A stretch of DNA of 64,000 bases. Origin: Beijerinckiaceae bacterium (GTDB lineage: Bacteria; Pseudomonadota; Alphaproteobacteria; Rhizobiales; Beijerinckiaceae). The notes beneath the pieces were generated by a model. The model was not told the origin of the DNA and did no database searches. It was given only the letters and a program-made list of their open reading frames with translations. The stretch is from positions 2,080,110 to 2,144,109 of the forward strand of contig JALJOM010000003.1 of the NCBI GenBank assembly GCA_024304885.1, read 5' to 3'. Below are positions 50,109 through 55,357 of this stretch, in pieces; position 1 is the first letter of the stretch, and every line of letters starts with the position of its first letter. Made by a program: the position numbers and the translations under genes.

Positions 50109-51506
50109 TCAATGCGGCGGCATCGGGATCCACAAAGGCGGCTTGCCGGAGAACTTCATCCGCTTCAGGACCATCTCGTCGGTGACGTCGAACGGCTTCA
50201 GGTAGACGTAGTAATTGTCCTTGCGCTCGAAGATGTCGTCCTTCGGCTGGCGGCTCTGGCTCACCAGCATCGTCGCCGAGAAGCGCATGTGCATGTAATG
50301 CGGGAGCAATTGCGTGAAATTCTCCGCTCGTGCCTCGAACCGGTAGCGGTAGAGAAGCATGTCGGCCGCGACGACGGCGATCCCGCTCGCGGCCTCGGAA
50401 ACCGGTTGGAGCGGCACCTCCTGCCAACCCGCGTCCACCTGGACATAGGCGTGCAGGTCCGGTGTGCCGACGTAGATCGGTGTGGTAGGCTCCACGTTGC
50501 GGAGCGCAATCGCGAACTCGTAGGCTCCTTCGCCGAGGTCCAGGATCGAGCCGACCTCGGATTGCAGGCGCGCGAGAGCGAGATTCGACAATTGCGCGAG
50601 CCGGCTGTCTCGCGTGCGGATTTGCTCCTCCTGAACTCTCGCGACCACGAGGTTCACGAGAAAGAGTCCCGCGAGACCGACGGCGCCGCCCAGCACGAGC
50701 GGGCGGGCTGCGCTCCACAGGCCGGCGCCGAGCCGGATCGGCACGGGCGGCGGCGGCGTTTCGCGGCTGTGGGAAGCTGGCGTGGGCCGAAAACCGTGCT
50801 TCCTCTGCGCATCTGCGCTCGCGACGCCCGCAAGATCGCTCGCGGTCAAGATCCCTTGCCGCATCTCGTAGGTTCGTTGCGCACGTTGCGCGAGCTCGAG
50901 ATTATGCGTGACGAGAACCAAGGCGAAGGCCTCGGCCTGCTGCAGCTCCTCGAGCAAGGCGAAGATATCGGCCTCGGTCTCCTCGTCGAGATCGCTCGTC
51001 GGCTCGTCGGCGAGCACGAGCCGCGGCGCATTGACGAGAGCTCGAGCGATCACGACCCGGCGTTGCTCGCCTCCGGACAGAGTGCCGGGATAAGAGCCGG
51101 CGCGGTCCGCGAGGCCGACGCGCCCGAGGAGATCGAACGCCCTCGCGTAGGCGGCGCGCGCAGCCATGGTTCGGCCGAGCAGAGCCGGCACGGCGACATT
51201 GTCGAGAGCCGTCAGGTTCCCGAGAAGGCTCGGGAACTGGAAGACGAAACCGATGTGCCGGCCCCGGAAGCGGGCGAGCTCGGCCTCCGGCATCGACCAG
51301 ATGTCGACACCGTCCAGGAGCACGAGGCCATCCGTCGGCCGGGTCAGGGCCCCGAGCATCGCGAGCAAGGTCGATTTGCCCGAGCCCGACCGGCCGACGA
51401 TCGAGACGAACTCGCCGGCTCGGAGGTCGAGGCTGGCCTCGCAGACGGCCTCGTATCCGGGTGCTGCGCCGTAGTGCTTCGTGAGCCGACGCGCCGAGAG
51501 GGACAC
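50109..51506 (-). CDS. ABC transporter ATPase with a fused periplasmic C-terminal domain
   Basis: The first ~225 of 465 residues are a LolD/MacB-type ATPase: Walker A G-R-S-G-S-G-K-S-T (38-46), signature L-S-G-G-E-Q (143-148), Walker B L-V-L-A-D-E-P (163-169), D-loop S-D-L-D and switch His201. A linker (about 225-265) leads to a membrane helix (268-290). A ~170-residue domain of unknown type then follows, with mixed alpha/beta character (A-Y-V-Q-V-D-A-G-W-Q-E-V-P-L, Y-Y-V-Y-L-K-P-F). Normal LolD/MacB ATPases have no such tail in this position. Start is GTG 51506, one base after the permease stop. It is the last gene of the thiocyanate-dehydrogenase-like operon. Confidence 0.85.
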   Translation of the reverse strand: MSLSARRLTKHYGAAPGYEAVCEASLDLRAGEFVSIVGRSGSGKSTLLAMLGALTRPTDGLVLLDGVDIWSMPEAELARFRGRHIGFVFQFPSLLGNLTALDNVAVPALLGRTMAARAAYARAFDLLGRVGLADRAGSYPGTLSGGEQRRVVIARALVNAPRLVLADEPTSDLDEETEADIFALLEELQQAEAFALVLVTHNLELAQRAQRTYEMRQGILTASDLAGVASADAQRKHGFRPTPASHSRETPPPPVPIRLGAGLWSAARPLVLGGAVGLAGLFLVNLVVARVQEEQIRTRDSRLAQLSNLALARLQSEVGSILDLGEGAYEFAIALRNVEPTTPIYVGTPDLHAYVQVDAGWQEVPLQPVSEAASGIAVVAADMLLYRYRFEARAENFTQLLPHYMHMRFSATMLVSQSRQPKDDIFERKDNYYVYLKPFDVTDEMVLKRMKFSGKPPLWIPMPPH

Positions 51507-51507
51507 G

Positions 51508-52803
51508 TCAGCGCGCCTCGCCCTGAATGAGCCCGAATGGCTCGAGACGGCGGACCCGCCAGGCAGGACCGAGGGAACCGACGAGCCCGAGCACGACCGA
51601 GAAAACGACGGCCGCCGCGGCTGCGGCCTGCAAGGTGCCGAGCCCCGGCCAAGTGAAAGGAATGCCGAGAAGATCGAAGGTGAAGCCGAGCGTCCGGGCG
51701 AAGATCGCGAGCAGCGTCGCGCCGAAGCCGAGGCCGGCGAGGCCGCCGAGACCCGTCGTGATGGCGGCCTCCACCAGGATGATCATCATGATCTGGCTCG
51801 GCCGGGCGCCCATCGCGCGCATGAGGCCGATCTCCCTGTAGCGTTCCTGCACGATCGCGGAGAACAGCAACGAGACGACGATCACGAGCGCGACGAGCTG
51901 GACGACGAAGAAGAGCGTCACGCCCACGAGCAATGCGTTCAGGGCCTGCCGCGACGATGTGAGGAGGGTGTTGCCCTCGACGAGTCTCACGTCGGGGATC
52001 TGCCCGATCGCGAACTTGACGTCCTCGAGCCGCGCAGATGGACGGAGCTGCAGGAGGAAGGCCGAGACGCGCGAGAGCGGAGGATCGGCGGTGCACGATG
52101 CCTCCGACCTGCCCCGGCCTCGCGCGGACTCGACCCCCACGCCGTTTCCGTCACTGCCGGCTCGCAGCGCGGCCGAAGGCGGAAGGACCTTGATCTTGGC
52201 GAGCCCGGCGTAGCTTGCGAAGATCGAGTCGTCGACCGGCCCCACGCGTGTCGGCTCGAGGCGCCCGTAAGCGTCGAAACGTGTCCCACAGACATGCAGG
52301 CTTTCGCCCGTCGAGGCCGCGGCACGCACGCCGGCGATCAGGTCCGTGGCCGCCAGCTGTCCCGGTCGATGCTTGTGGAGCCAAGGCAGGATCGAGAAAT
52401 CACGCTCGGGATCGAAGGCGACGAGGTTGGTCTCCCTCCCGTCGAGCAGAACGCGAACGATCGTCTGGGGTGCAACACGCGCGACGCCGGGAACCGCCGC
52501 TAAAGCCTCGGACAGGCCGGCGTCGATCGTTTCCTCGGTCGGTTGCACGGTCAAGAGGCTCGCGGTGATGTTGACGAGCGTCCTGCGTGGCACGACGACG
52601 AGATCGGCACCCATCCGCGACAAGCTCGCCGTCATGCCGGCCTGCAGGGACCAGCCGGCGACGAAGCTCGCGAAGCCTGTTCCGACGCCGAGCATGACCG
52701 CGAGTCCGAGCAGGATCGCGCGCACGCGTCGCCGCACGACGTTCTGCGCCGCCATCCTGACCAGCAGCCAGAGATCGTCCGGACGCGCTCCCATGTGGCC
52801 CAT
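51508..52803 (-). CDS. ABC transporter permease, MacB/FtsX type
   Basis: This 431-residue membrane protein has the four-helix MacB/LolCE-like topology: one N-terminal helix (about 22-48), a large periplasmic domain (~50-280), then three C-terminal helices (about 290-320, 340-370, 385-415). The FtsX core shows as A-L-V-I-V-V-S-L-L-F-S-A-I-V-Q-E-R-Y-R-E-I-G-L-M-R-A-M-G-A (about 306-334), which is characteristic. It starts 3 bases after the stop of the thiocyanate-dehydrogenase-like gene, with no ribosome site of its own, so it is translationally coupled. With the ATPase it forms a mechanotransmission-type or export ABC complex. Confidence 0.87.
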   Translation of the reverse strand: MGHMGARPDDLWLLVRMAAQNVVRRRVRAILLGLAVMLGVGTGFASFVAGWSLQAGMTASLSRMGADLVVVPRRTLVNITASLLTVQPTEETIDAGLSEALAAVPGVARVAPQTIVRVLLDGRETNLVAFDPERDFSILPWLHKHRPGQLAATDLIAGVRAAASTGESLHVCGTRFDAYGRLEPTRVGPVDDSIFASYAGLAKIKVLPPSAALRAGSDGNGVGVESARGRGRSEASCTADPPLSRVSAFLLQLRPSARLEDVKFAIGQIPDVRLVEGNTLLTSSRQALNALLVGVTLFFVVQLVALVIVVSLLFSAIVQERYREIGLMRAMGARPSQIMMIILVEAAITTGLGGLAGLGFGATLLAIFARTLGFTFDLLGIPFTWPGLGTLQAAAAAAVVFSVVLGLVGSLGPAWRVRRLEPFGLIQGEAR

Positions 52804-52806
52804 ACG

Positions 52807-54666
52807 CTACAAGGTGCAGGAGCGCGTATGCTTCATGTGCTCGAGCTCGGTCGGGATGATGACACAGTCGTGGTGCCCGCCGTTGCTCGGCCAGATGCCG
52901 ATGAGCTCGTCCGTCTTCGCGTCGATGAAGGCGATTCCGCTCGAAAGGCGCTGGAAGCCGCTGAAGACCCCGACGACATACTTGCCGTCGTAGGTCACGG
53001 CGAGGGTCTGCATGTCGGGCCCGATCCCCTGGATTTCCTTCTTGATGGTCCAGGTGTCGGTATCGACCACCATCACGCCGCTCGAGGCCGGCGAGGGATG
53101 CAGGATCGACAGATAGAGCTTCTTGCTGTCCATCGAGAACACCATGTGGAACGGATTCGGGTACTTGCCGCGCCACAGGGGATCCTCGATATGCGCGATC
53201 TTCTTCCAGTTGCGGGGATCGGGGTCGCTGGTGGCGAAGACCGAGCAATTGTTCTCGCGCAGGTTGTTCATCATGCAGAAGAACCGGCCGTCGGGCGAGA
53301 ACCCGATCTCGTGACCCGGCGAGAAGATCTTGTCGAAGGTGACCTGCCAATGGTCGTCGTCGAGCTTGACGACCGGATATTGGTTCGGCGCATCCTTGTT
53401 GAACTGCAGGAAGGCGACAGGCTCGAAATCGTTCTCCGCATCGAGGATGACCGTGCCCCCGCAGAGCCGTACCACCGTGGCCGCCCACCGGCCGGTCGGA
53501 TACCAGATCGTGCCGTCCGCGCCGCTGAGATGATGGGGATCGTCGCCCGGGATCGTGCCTTCCTCGACGAACAATTCCCCCATGGGCACCATCTCCCATT
53601 CGATCTTTTGCCCTTTGGTCCCCTTGTAGTCGTACTTGCCGGTCGCCGGATCCGGGTAGATTTTCGAGATCTTCAGCACGCCACCGTTGCGCCACGACAT
53701 GGCGAGGTTCGAATCGTTCGGCTCCCAGTCGAACTTGAGCGCAGCGATGACGCGCGAGGTCCTCCGATCGAAGCAGGCGGCGATGTCCTTCTGCCCGTCG
53801 GTCACGAAATAGCGCTCGGCCGTCTTGGGGTCGATCGTCACATGGACGCCGAGGCCGAGGCCTGTCGTCTCGGAGACGTTCTCCATCACCTCCATCTGGC
53901 TGCCGTCGTAGCGGACACGGTAGATATTGAAGCCTTCCGCCGGGGATTCGATGCTGGTCGGGATGCCGTAGATGAGCGAGTTCTTGCCGCCCTGGGTGCT
54001 GTTGACCCATTCGAAGCCGTGCACCGGATCCGCGCTCGGGAAGGCGCACAAATGATGCGAGATCGGGCTGAAGTCGCCATAGGTCCAATAGGAAATCCAG
54101 GCGAGCGCCCGGCCGGTGTGGAGATCGACGGCATAGGTCCCTCCCCCGAGCTTCGTCGGCATCAGCAGGACCCAATGGCCGAACCCCTTGCCGCCGATAT
54201 CCGCGCGCGGGTTGATCAATTCACGCTCGATGTGGTGCCGCTGAGCTTCGGTGTAGGTCTCGCCGGCATGCTTGAGGCCATGCGCCGGCACGGCCTGGTC
54301 CGTGATCAGCGAATGCGCGATGACGGCCGCTTCCCCGACCGCCGCGCCGGTGGCCGCCACCGCGAGGAAATTCCGCCTGTCGATTCGTGACCGGGCGTGG
54401 CGCGCTTCGTCGGGTGCCGCCGGCAGCGGCACGACGTTCTGGCCCCGGGCAAGCGCTTCCTCCTCTCGGGCCTGCTTCTGTGCGAGATAATCCAGGAACT
54501 CCTTGTGGTCTTGCTCGGTGACCTCGGCCTTGCGCGCGAGATAGTGCTGCGCGGCGGTAAGCCCTGTAGCGGCGCCGGCAGGGCCGCTCTCGCCTCCCGG
54601 GTCGATGCCCGAGGAATTGTCGGCCTCCATGACCTTCGTCGGTTGCGTGGCGCGCTGTTCCGGCAT
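52807..54666 (-). CDS. Thiocyanate-dehydrogenase-like copper beta-propeller protein
   Basis: The 619-residue protein carries a Tat signal (R-I-D-R-R-N-F-L-A-V-A, 94-104) after an unusual ~90-residue N-terminal extension. The rest closely recalls thiocyanate dehydrogenase of Thioalkalivibrio, a periplasmic seven-bladed propeller with a trinuclear copper site related to nitrous oxide reductase, which oxidises SCN- to cyanate and sulfur. All family histidine motifs are present: G-F-G-H-W (164), P-I-S-H-H-L (204-205), G-V-H-V (275), P-G-H-E-I (452), P-F-H-M (507) and G-G-H-H-D (598-599). F-V-E-E-G (366-370) and G-E-L also match. Start ATG 54666 has a strong ggggggaa site. Downstream ABC genes are within a few bases. 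Substrate identity is inferred, not shown. Confidence 0.8.
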   Translation of the reverse strand: MPEQRATQPTKVMEADNSSGIDPGGESGPAGAATGLTAAQHYLARKAEVTEQDHKEFLDYLAQKQAREEEALARGQNVVPLPAAPDEARHARSRIDRRNFLAVAATGAAVGEAAVIAHSLITDQAVPAHGLKHAGETYTEAQRHHIERELINPRADIGGKGFGHWVLLMPTKLGGGTYAVDLHTGRALAWISYWTYGDFSPISHHLCAFPSADPVHGFEWVNSTQGGKNSLIYGIPTSIESPAEGFNIYRVRYDGSQMEVMENVSETTGLGLGVHVTIDPKTAERYFVTDGQKDIAACFDRRTSRVIAALKFDWEPNDSNLAMSWRNGGVLKISKIYPDPATGKYDYKGTKGQKIEWEMVPMGELFVEEGTIPGDDPHHLSGADGTIWYPTGRWAATVVRLCGGTVILDAENDFEPVAFLQFNKDAPNQYPVVKLDDDHWQVTFDKIFSPGHEIGFSPDGRFFCMMNNLRENNCSVFATSDPDPRNWKKIAHIEDPLWRGKYPNPFHMVFSMDSKKLYLSILHPSPASSGVMVVDTDTWTIKKEIQGIGPDMQTLAVTYDGKYVVGVFSGFQRLSSGIAFIDAKTDELIGIWPSNGGHHDCVIIPTELEHMKHTRSCTL

Positions 54667-54691
54667 TCGTTCCCCCCGTTGTTTCGAGACT

Positions 54692-55357
54692 CTAGGATCC
54701 TTCGAGCAGAACCTGCTTGGCCTCGTTGATCTTCGCGGCGAGGTAGCGTGCCCCGCCGAACTCTCGGTCGAGCTTTTCCGTCAAGCGATGGTGCGCCTCG
54801 ATGACGTCCTCCATGCTCGGGTCGGGATCGAGCCCGAGGACATCGAGGGCCTCCTCGCTCGACATGCGCGAGACGGATGTACGTGCGGATCCGTTGACGG
54901 GTCCGGCGAGCAAATGGATTTCGCTCGACACTCGATTGGCGTCACGTCTGGTCTCTTCGAGATAGGCCTTCAAGACGGCAACCGACTGCGCGACCAGCGT
55001 GGGGTCGATCGGGGCACGCGCCGCCGAGCGAGGCCTCGGGCCGGCATCCGGTGCCGCGAAAGCCGAGCCGCCGACAAAAGCCTCGAGGGGTCGCAGAAGG
55101 GCACGCCAGCGCGGCGCCGATTCGACCAGGATCGGCAGGATGAACGCGGCGACCATCATCGCCGTCGTCCAGCGGCGCTCCACCACCAGCCACGCCAGCA
55201 GGCCCAGAGCAAGCAAGATCAGGCACGGGACGAACCACCGACAGACCGCGGCCATGACGGCGGGATCGGCGAGGATCAGTCGTGCGAGCTTGATTGCGGA
55301 AACCAACGACGAGAGGCCGAACGCCGCCAACGCGATGATGGTCCACTCATCCATCAC
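54692..55357 (-). CDS. Membrane protein with a degenerate J-domain
   Basis: The 221-residue protein has three N-terminal hydrophobic segments (about 5-25, 41-62, 67-80). A soluble region follows, and the C-terminal ~57 residues resemble the J-domain (DnaJ-type): M-S-S-E-E-A-L-D-V-L-G-L-D-P (helix I start), E-A-H-H-R-L-T-E-K-L, then D-R-E-F-G-G where H-P-D would lie, and Y-L-A-A-K-I-N-E-A-K-Q-V-L. The loss of H-P-D means it cannot stimulate an Hsp70 in the usual way, as in TIM16-like inhibitory J-proteins. It sits 25 bases upstream of the thiocyanate-dehydrogenase-like gene and is probably the first gene of that operon. Confidence 0.7.
   Translation of the reverse strand: MMDEWTIIALAAFGLSSLVSAIKLARLILADPAVMAAVCRWFVPCLILLALGLLAWLVVERRWTTAMMVAAFILPILVESAPRWRALLRPLEAFVGGSAFAAPDAGPRPRSAARAPIDPTLVAQSVAVLKAYLEETRRDANRVSSEIHLLAGPVNGSARTSVSRMSSEEALDVLGLDPDPSMEDVIEAHHRLTEKLDREFGGARYLAAKINEAKQVLLEGS

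Follow-up and report, generated by a model that had tools for sequence, protein, structure and literature searches.

We analysed a stretch of 64,000 nt (the window) from the Beijerinckiaceae bacterium assembly GCA_024304885.1 (contig JALJOM010000003.1, positions 2,080,110–2,144,109), whose minus strand carries a four-gene operon centred on a copper β-propeller of the thiocyanate dehydrogenase (TcDH) family, in which the active-site His482 and the Gly292 of the known enzymes are replaced by Gln and Met. The other genes encode a J-like membrane protein and an ATP-binding cassette (ABC) pair whose ATPase is fused to a membrane-anchored C-terminal domain, designated here EXT, that is a third conserved component of the cluster. 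On balance we consider it somewhat probable that this operon makes and matures a TcDH-family periplasmic copper propeller, with the ABC/EXT module loading its copper, and that the enzyme has an altered mechanism or substrate. As outlined in a preliminary description, the four genes lie in tight order, and the coordinates of the open reading frames (ORFs) confirm gaps of 25, 3, and 1 bases between the genes for the J-like protein (54,692–55,357; 221 aa), the propeller (52,807–54,666; 619 aa), the FtsX/MacB-type permease (51,508–52,803; 431 aa) and the ATPase of the LolD/MacB class (50,109–51,506; 465 aa).

The propeller (P0001) is a clear TcDH homologue in an alphaproteobacterium, as had been proposed. 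In phmmer searches its residues 161–617, which cover the whole propeller, matched solved TcDHs with a best E-value of 9.6e-161 (chain 8yu5), and the structural model, with a predicted local distance difference test (pLDDT) score of 87.5, superposes on 8q9x with a template modelling (TM) score of 0.91, a root mean square deviation of 1.2 and 51% identity, indicating the same fold. Proteins NirF and NirN and nitrous oxide reductase appeared as distant structural relatives of the model (E about 1e-13 to 1e-11), and no Pfam or NCBIfam model scored above its cut-off. Thirteen active-site residues have been tabulated in the numbering of 5F75, all of them present in TcDH homologues of two thiocyanate-oxidising bacteria, according to that tabulation (PMC6504805). 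We mapped these residues by alignment offset onto chain 6SJI, which agrees exactly in 12 letters and has Gln at 482; its title describes an engineered mutant with His482 replaced by Gln. The window enzyme shares with the TcDHs of Thioalkalivibrio paradoxus (tpTcDH; 5F75) and Pelomicrobium methylotrophicum (8Q9X) the seven-bladed propeller, the twin-arginine translocation (Tat) motif and 12 of the 13 residues, including the equivalents of Lys103 and Glu288. The full set of TcDH histidine motifs claimed for this gene was not borne out, because the position of tpTcDH His482 is occupied by Gln553 (codon CAG; 53,008–53,010, minus strand), so that the loss of active-site residues, which the preliminary description had named as grounds for refutation, applies in part; likewise, Met362 (53,581–53,583, minus strand) stands at position 292, which is Gly in all nine His-type sequences compared. 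These two replacements probably imply an altered copper environment and, because of them, thiocyanate oxidation by the window enzyme is unproven. The same residue occurs at the same position in the engineered mutants H482Q (6SJI) and H447Q (8YU5 and 8YU6), as judged from the PDB titles and, for 6SJI and 8YU5, also from the sequence; in contrast to these, the replacement in the window occurs in nature, is fixed throughout a large clade and goes together with Met292. At the motif level, the Tat export suggested previously also held, with the sequence DRRNFL at residue 96 followed by a hydrophobic stretch (54,307–54,381, minus strand), and the enzyme is thus predicted to be exported by this pathway.

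Comparison of 94 loci (L023–L116), of which 91 were distinct and three duplicated a genome place already represented, revealed that Gln482 accompanies the other 12 intact residues in 87 of them, so that a sequencing error in the window could be rejected. Position 482 is His in L035 and L113 and Glu in L115, whereas four loci (L083, L084, L085, and L101) are incomplete or disrupted, with Gln again in their usable pieces. These counts apply to a scan whose seeds were mainly of the Gln type, in which the best 80 of 128 relatives were kept and His-type sequences are few. After adding five gammaproteobacterial sequences, all with His, and removing six broken pieces, the residue comparison comprised 88 Gln rows (85 distinct loci) and nine His-type rows, among which we counted tpTcDH even though its row comes from the mutant chain. 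Position 292 was Met in 84 of the 85 distinct Gln loci, and Trp452, kept in all nine His-type rows, was Leu or Met in the same proportion (84/85). The sole exception, from Tautonia (Planctomycetota; L087:9614–11380), combines Gln482 with Gly292 and Trp452, and we did not find an adjoining ABC/EXT module; this enzyme is either an intermediate or a separate change. The enzyme with Glu482, from a member of the Methylococcaceae (L115:9824–11416), has no adjoining module either, and no EXT was found in its genome. In an isolate record of Methylotetracoccus oryzae (L101:9761–11410) the enzyme frame is divided between two ORFs, so that either the gene is broken or the record contains a sequencing error.

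A tree of 59 enzyme rows, inferred with a quick method and with columns 482, 292, and 452 excluded, grouped the Gln/Met sequences in a clade of 49 rows, including the Glu row of L115, with a support of 92. On this tree position 482 requires two changes and position 292 only one, which indicates that the Gln/Met state is old and has been kept across phyla. The Gln482 clade was found in several phyla and, going by record titles, its carriers include methanotrophs, Reyranella, Planctomycetota and Melainabacteria-type bacteria. Among the matches listed in searches of the open-access literature we found no mention of the Gln variant, of H482Q or of TcDH in methanotrophs, and do not claim that none exists.

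In the published cluster of Thioalkalivibrio, which is induced on thiocyanate, two permease/ATPase pairs come after TcDH, together with one or two hypothetical proteins and regulators; copper acquisition was proposed for the ABC genes, copCD being nearby (PMC5328954; PMC5744179), and the second report leaves open how TcDH obtains its copper (PMC5744179). As in Thioalkalivibrio, permease and ATPase genes adjoin the enzyme in the window, with the differences that there is one pair instead of two, that EXT is fused to the ATPase, and that an N-terminal extension of the enzyme and the J-like gene are added. The linkage of these ABC genes to TcDH homologues in other genomes, anticipated in the preliminary description, held widely if not universally: permease, ATPase and EXT occur within 6 kb of the enzyme in 77 of the 91 distinct loci, and six further loci cut by contig ends show part of the module. 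Together with the finding that sampled genomes with EXT contain a single copy of it (see below), this allowed us to reject the ABC pair as a chance neighbour. A betaproteobacterial contig (L113), with an enzyme that shares 68% identity with tpTcDH, reproduces the published layout, with a gene for flavocytochrome c sulfide dehydrogenase, TcDH, two permease/ATPase pairs, two EXT genes and a histidine kinase; the hypothetical proteins reported in Thioalkalivibrio are therefore probably EXT proteins. Since the linkage itself was already known, what is new here is its extension to 77 of 91 loci and the recognition of EXT as the third conserved component.

The ATPase had been described as carrying an extra domain, which we delimited, from the structural model and an 82-row alignment, as residues 287–465 (50,112–50,648, minus strand). 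This EXT domain consists of an anchor helix plus a β-sandwich (pLDDT 93.0) and contains two nearly invariant motifs, Y404-M405-H406 (50,289–50,297; Y in 81, M in 79, and H in 81 of the 82 rows) and M462-P-P-H465 (50,112–50,123; M and H in 80 rows each); in 80 rows the EXT-bearing protein ends with this His. The alignment includes two rows each from L113 and L032, one of the L032 pieces being broken, and has 79 rows without second copies. In a sample of 385 genomes of the class, EXT was present in three, exactly those with a strong match to the enzyme, and in a sample of 299 genomes of the phylum, which overlaps the former, in two, which again were the two with a strong match; weak matches to the enzyme profile (E 7e-5 to 8e-4) appeared in two and three further genomes, respectively, that lack EXT. 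As a positive control, the EXT query did detect the domain in known carrier genomes.

The strongest argument for a copper role comes from a second lineage with His482. In the accounts of Thiohalobacter and Guyparkeria, Cus-type genes, including a tandem pair of cusB, lie beside TcDH, a "copper acquisition part" unlike the one found in the haloalkaliphiles (PMC6504805). The enzymes of this lineage belong to the same family as that of the window and have the same other 12 residues but keep His482 and Gly292. Correspondingly, in an alphaproteobacterial genome (G047, contig C39) the His-type enzyme of L035 adjoins two CusB/HlyD-type genes, one with a heavy-metal-binding domain; because of this pair, we tentatively placed L035 and five other loci (L127–L131) in the same lineage, the neighbours scanned being those of L035, and their enzymes are 34–40% identical to those of T. 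paradoxus and P. methylotrophicum. No EXT was found in any of these six genomes. Neighbouring genes that take each other's place next to one enzyme often share a function, and the lineage with Cus-type genes (in print and in L035) lacks EXT; this substitution, our main argument, suggests a copper role for the ABC/EXT module, and EXT therefore probably serves copper supply. The His482-type homologue of L035 (L035:16608–18137), which comes from a bacterium of the same family as that of the window and is about 35% identical to tpTcDH, lies some 1.1 kb from a cyanase match (about L035:19024–19224) and is a better candidate for an alphaproteobacterial thiocyanate dehydrogenase than the window gene. 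In one gammaproteobacterium of the lineage, a TcDH-like fragment of 117 aa (L127:3592–3942) lies downstream of the full gene, an arrangement similar to, although not the same as, the 52-aa fragment reported upstream of TcDH in Guyparkeria (PMC6504805).

Enzyme and module in the window have different ancestries. On the enzyme tree, the window and its sister L037 fall within the loci that we call type A (28 rows, support 100), whereas in the trees of the permease, the ATPase and EXT, inferred with a quick method for a set of 41 loci that we selected from the 91, both cluster with type B (support 100, 98, and 99, respectively), a grouping that match scores had suggested beforehand. Forcing them into type A was rejected for the three components (approximately unbiased test, p-AU 1e-14, 0.0095, and 0.0059). 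The window thus contains a hybrid operon, in which an enzyme of type A is combined with an ABC/EXT module of type B. In the window and in type B a single ORF encodes both the ATPase and EXT; type-A loci have an ORF of its own for EXT, except for the sisters of the window, L037 and L084. In L037 and L084 the permease and ATPase/EXT genes precede the enzyme, with the J-like gene first in L037, so that the module occurs in either arrangement. Conversely, two features stay with the enzyme. Of the 56 distinct type-A loci, 51 contain the J-like gene, which is found in none of the other 35; the five exceptions comprise three loci for which no DNA is available upstream, the cut L084, and L044, where the gene is missing. 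Likewise, the N-terminal extension that precedes the Tat signal (54,463–54,555, minus strand), with the motif DHKEFLDYL at residue 53, is recognisable in 55 of 59 type-A rows and in none of 35 others, the exceptions being a DN variant identified by eye in L037 and L084, and the cut or broken L083 and L085. The J-like protein and the extension therefore probably act on the enzyme rather than on the transporter, although their co-occurrence may reflect shared descent alone, type A being one clade.

The preliminary description reasoned by analogy with NosDFY, which serves nitrous oxide reductase. The permease class of NosDFY differs from that of the window, which is FtsX-type, as PF02687 confirmed (4.5e-18). 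The analogy is one of function only, in that in NosDFYL an ABC ATPase, a permease and a periplasmic partner likewise serve a copper propeller (PMC6530538; PMC7558416). In the window the candidate bearing Met and His is EXT, whereas NosL, a copper chaperone in the maturation of nitrous oxide reductase, is reported to have Cys and Met as likely Cu(I) ligands and no absolutely conserved His (PMC6530538; PMC7558416). The PCuAC chaperones also place a Met/His ligand set in a β-rich domain, but their motif, given as H(M)x10Mx21HxM in the cited account (PMC7558416), was not seen by eye in the EXT alignment. EXT retrieved no family from Pfam or PDB sequence searches; PCuAC was absent from both and from the 50 fold matches listed, and NosL and NosD were absent from the PDB sequence matches and the listed fold matches, so that we rejected EXT as PCuAC, NosL or any other solved copper chaperone.

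Dedicated copper supply or maturation, as originally suggested, is still the best reading of these data, and part of it, the linkage and the copper-acquisition idea, had already been published for Thioalkalivibrio. We propose that the operon product is a Tat-exported periplasmic copper β-propeller oxidoreductase of a natural Gln482/Met292 subfamily, and that the FtsX/MacB-type ABC pair and EXT would form one inner-membrane machine. Held at the membrane and facing the periplasm, EXT would bind copper through two pairs, Met-His and the C-terminal Met-Pro-Pro-His, while the permease, set in motion by ATP, would drive the loading or assembly of the multi-copper site. The J-like protein would probably act in the cytoplasm on the N-terminal extension of the enzyme before export, as their co-occurrence suggests, and the enzyme would probably differ from a standard thiocyanate dehydrogenase, either in its mechanism or in acting on a different small S/N/C substrate. 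The homology, the residues, the linkage, the co-occurrence and the different ancestry of enzyme and module are observed. We advance more tentatively the possibility of a multi-phylum class of copper propellers, in methanotrophs and numerous other bacteria, with Gln482/Met292, a remodelled copper cluster, possibly with a Met ligand, and a reaction different from thiocyanate dehydrogenation; an FtsX/MacB-like machine would insert the copper, with EXT, which ends in Met-Pro-Pro-His, as a new kind of copper chaperone.

Several observations weigh against copper loading by this module. The best PDB fold match of EXT is weak (3but, E 2.8e-4, TM 0.28) and there is no copper chaperone among the 50 matches listed; as no good structure match is available, copper binding by EXT is argued from motif conservation, and one of the two EXT copies in the canonical-type cluster of L113 has lost both motifs. 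Additionally, eight distinct loci (L035, L087, L088, L098, L101, L103, L109, and L115) have no module, with only 2,151 bases available downstream in L103, and searches of the eight genomes did not find EXT elsewhere either. The enzyme can therefore exist without the module, also within the Gln- or Glu-type, to which seven of the eight loci belong. A Pfam scan of some of the neighbours of these loci retrieved GDPD, TIR and DUF3280, several having no family.

Among the alternatives, an ordinary thiocyanate dehydrogenase in which Gln482 is tolerated, converting periplasmic thiocyanate to cyanate and sulfur, is the one that survives best, although we consider it unlikely. The conservation of 12 of 13 active-site residues, Lys103 and Glu288 equivalents among them, the close fold match and an ABC partner of the same kind as that of Thioalkalivibrio all agree with it. 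However, the nine His-type rows come from two separate lineages and keep Gly292, and all except the mutant tpTcDH chain show His482, as do, in the published descriptions, the proven oxidisers Thioalkalivibrio, Thiohalobacter and Guyparkeria (PMC6504805). A weak argument in the same direction is that no cyanase match was found in the window genome, which is 99.94% complete; its weakness lies in that cyanase was not found either in three of the seven His-type genomes searched. In the genus of the window, cyanase is present in five of 11 carriers of the enzyme and in three of four non-carriers, so that the usual next enzyme for the product does not track the TcDH-family gene, and these counts led us to reject cyanase presence as a separator of Gln- and His-types.

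ATPases of the LolD/MacB class and FtsX permeases serve elsewhere as exporters of lipoproteins, drugs or peptides. The ABC pair might accordingly move a substrate or product, such as thiocyanate, cyanate, sulfur or lipid-bound species, instead of participating in maturation, and the permease indeed shows no strongly conserved metal ligands: among the columns present in the window permease, none with Cys, His or Met reaches 90% conservation in 82 homologues. We find this slightly harder still to credit, because EXT has nearly invariant Met/His motifs and appears, in the samples, only in enzyme-bearing genomes, and because a lineage with Cus-type genes, and without EXT, beside the enzyme fits copper supply better. 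The same lack of conserved columns argues against import of copper into the cytoplasm, which we regard as very improbable, and FtsX/MacB-type permeases are not known to act as importers. The proposal of copper acquisition dates from 2017 and concerned a cluster with copCD genes nearby and induction by thiocyanate (PMC5328954; PMC5744179); its authors saw no features of P1B-type copper transport and no predicted metal-binding domain (PMC5744179). Finally, the loss of one active-site histidine might suggest that the Gln-type protein has degenerated, is inactive or serves to store copper; this is scarcely credible, because decay would not keep the other 12 residues in 87 of 94 loci, along with one coupled new residue.

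The remaining features of the operon agree with the assignments given above. Best matches of the J-like protein, which has N-terminal hydrophobic segments and a C-terminal J-like domain, fell just under the cut-offs, with 25.5 bits (1.5e-5) against 30.3 for Pam16 in the window and 26.7 against 27.8 for DnaJ in a relative, and confirm its earlier description as a J-like membrane protein. The ATPase (PF00005, 9.9e-32) scored 223.7 (2e-66) with the LolD model and 176.6 with that of MacB, under their curated cut-offs of 307.75 and 966. Neither fccAB nor a regulator is found among the four operon genes, and the published layout with two pairs, hypothetical proteins and a two-component regulator is not seen in the window. 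The genes flanking the operon resemble, by eye, ppx/ppk and leuC, and scans retrieved one promoter-like site (0.7 expected) and eight terminator-like sites (3.7 expected). The genome contains one match to the pmoA/amoA family, so that the host is probably a methanotroph.

TcDH has so far been described from a few thiocyanate oxidisers. If the Gln/Met clade carries out other chemistry, it would represent an overlooked copper enzyme of methanotrophs, Reyranella, Planctomycetota and Melainabacteria-type bacteria, and EXT, as a candidate third component, offers a testable answer to the question of how TcDH is supplied with copper.

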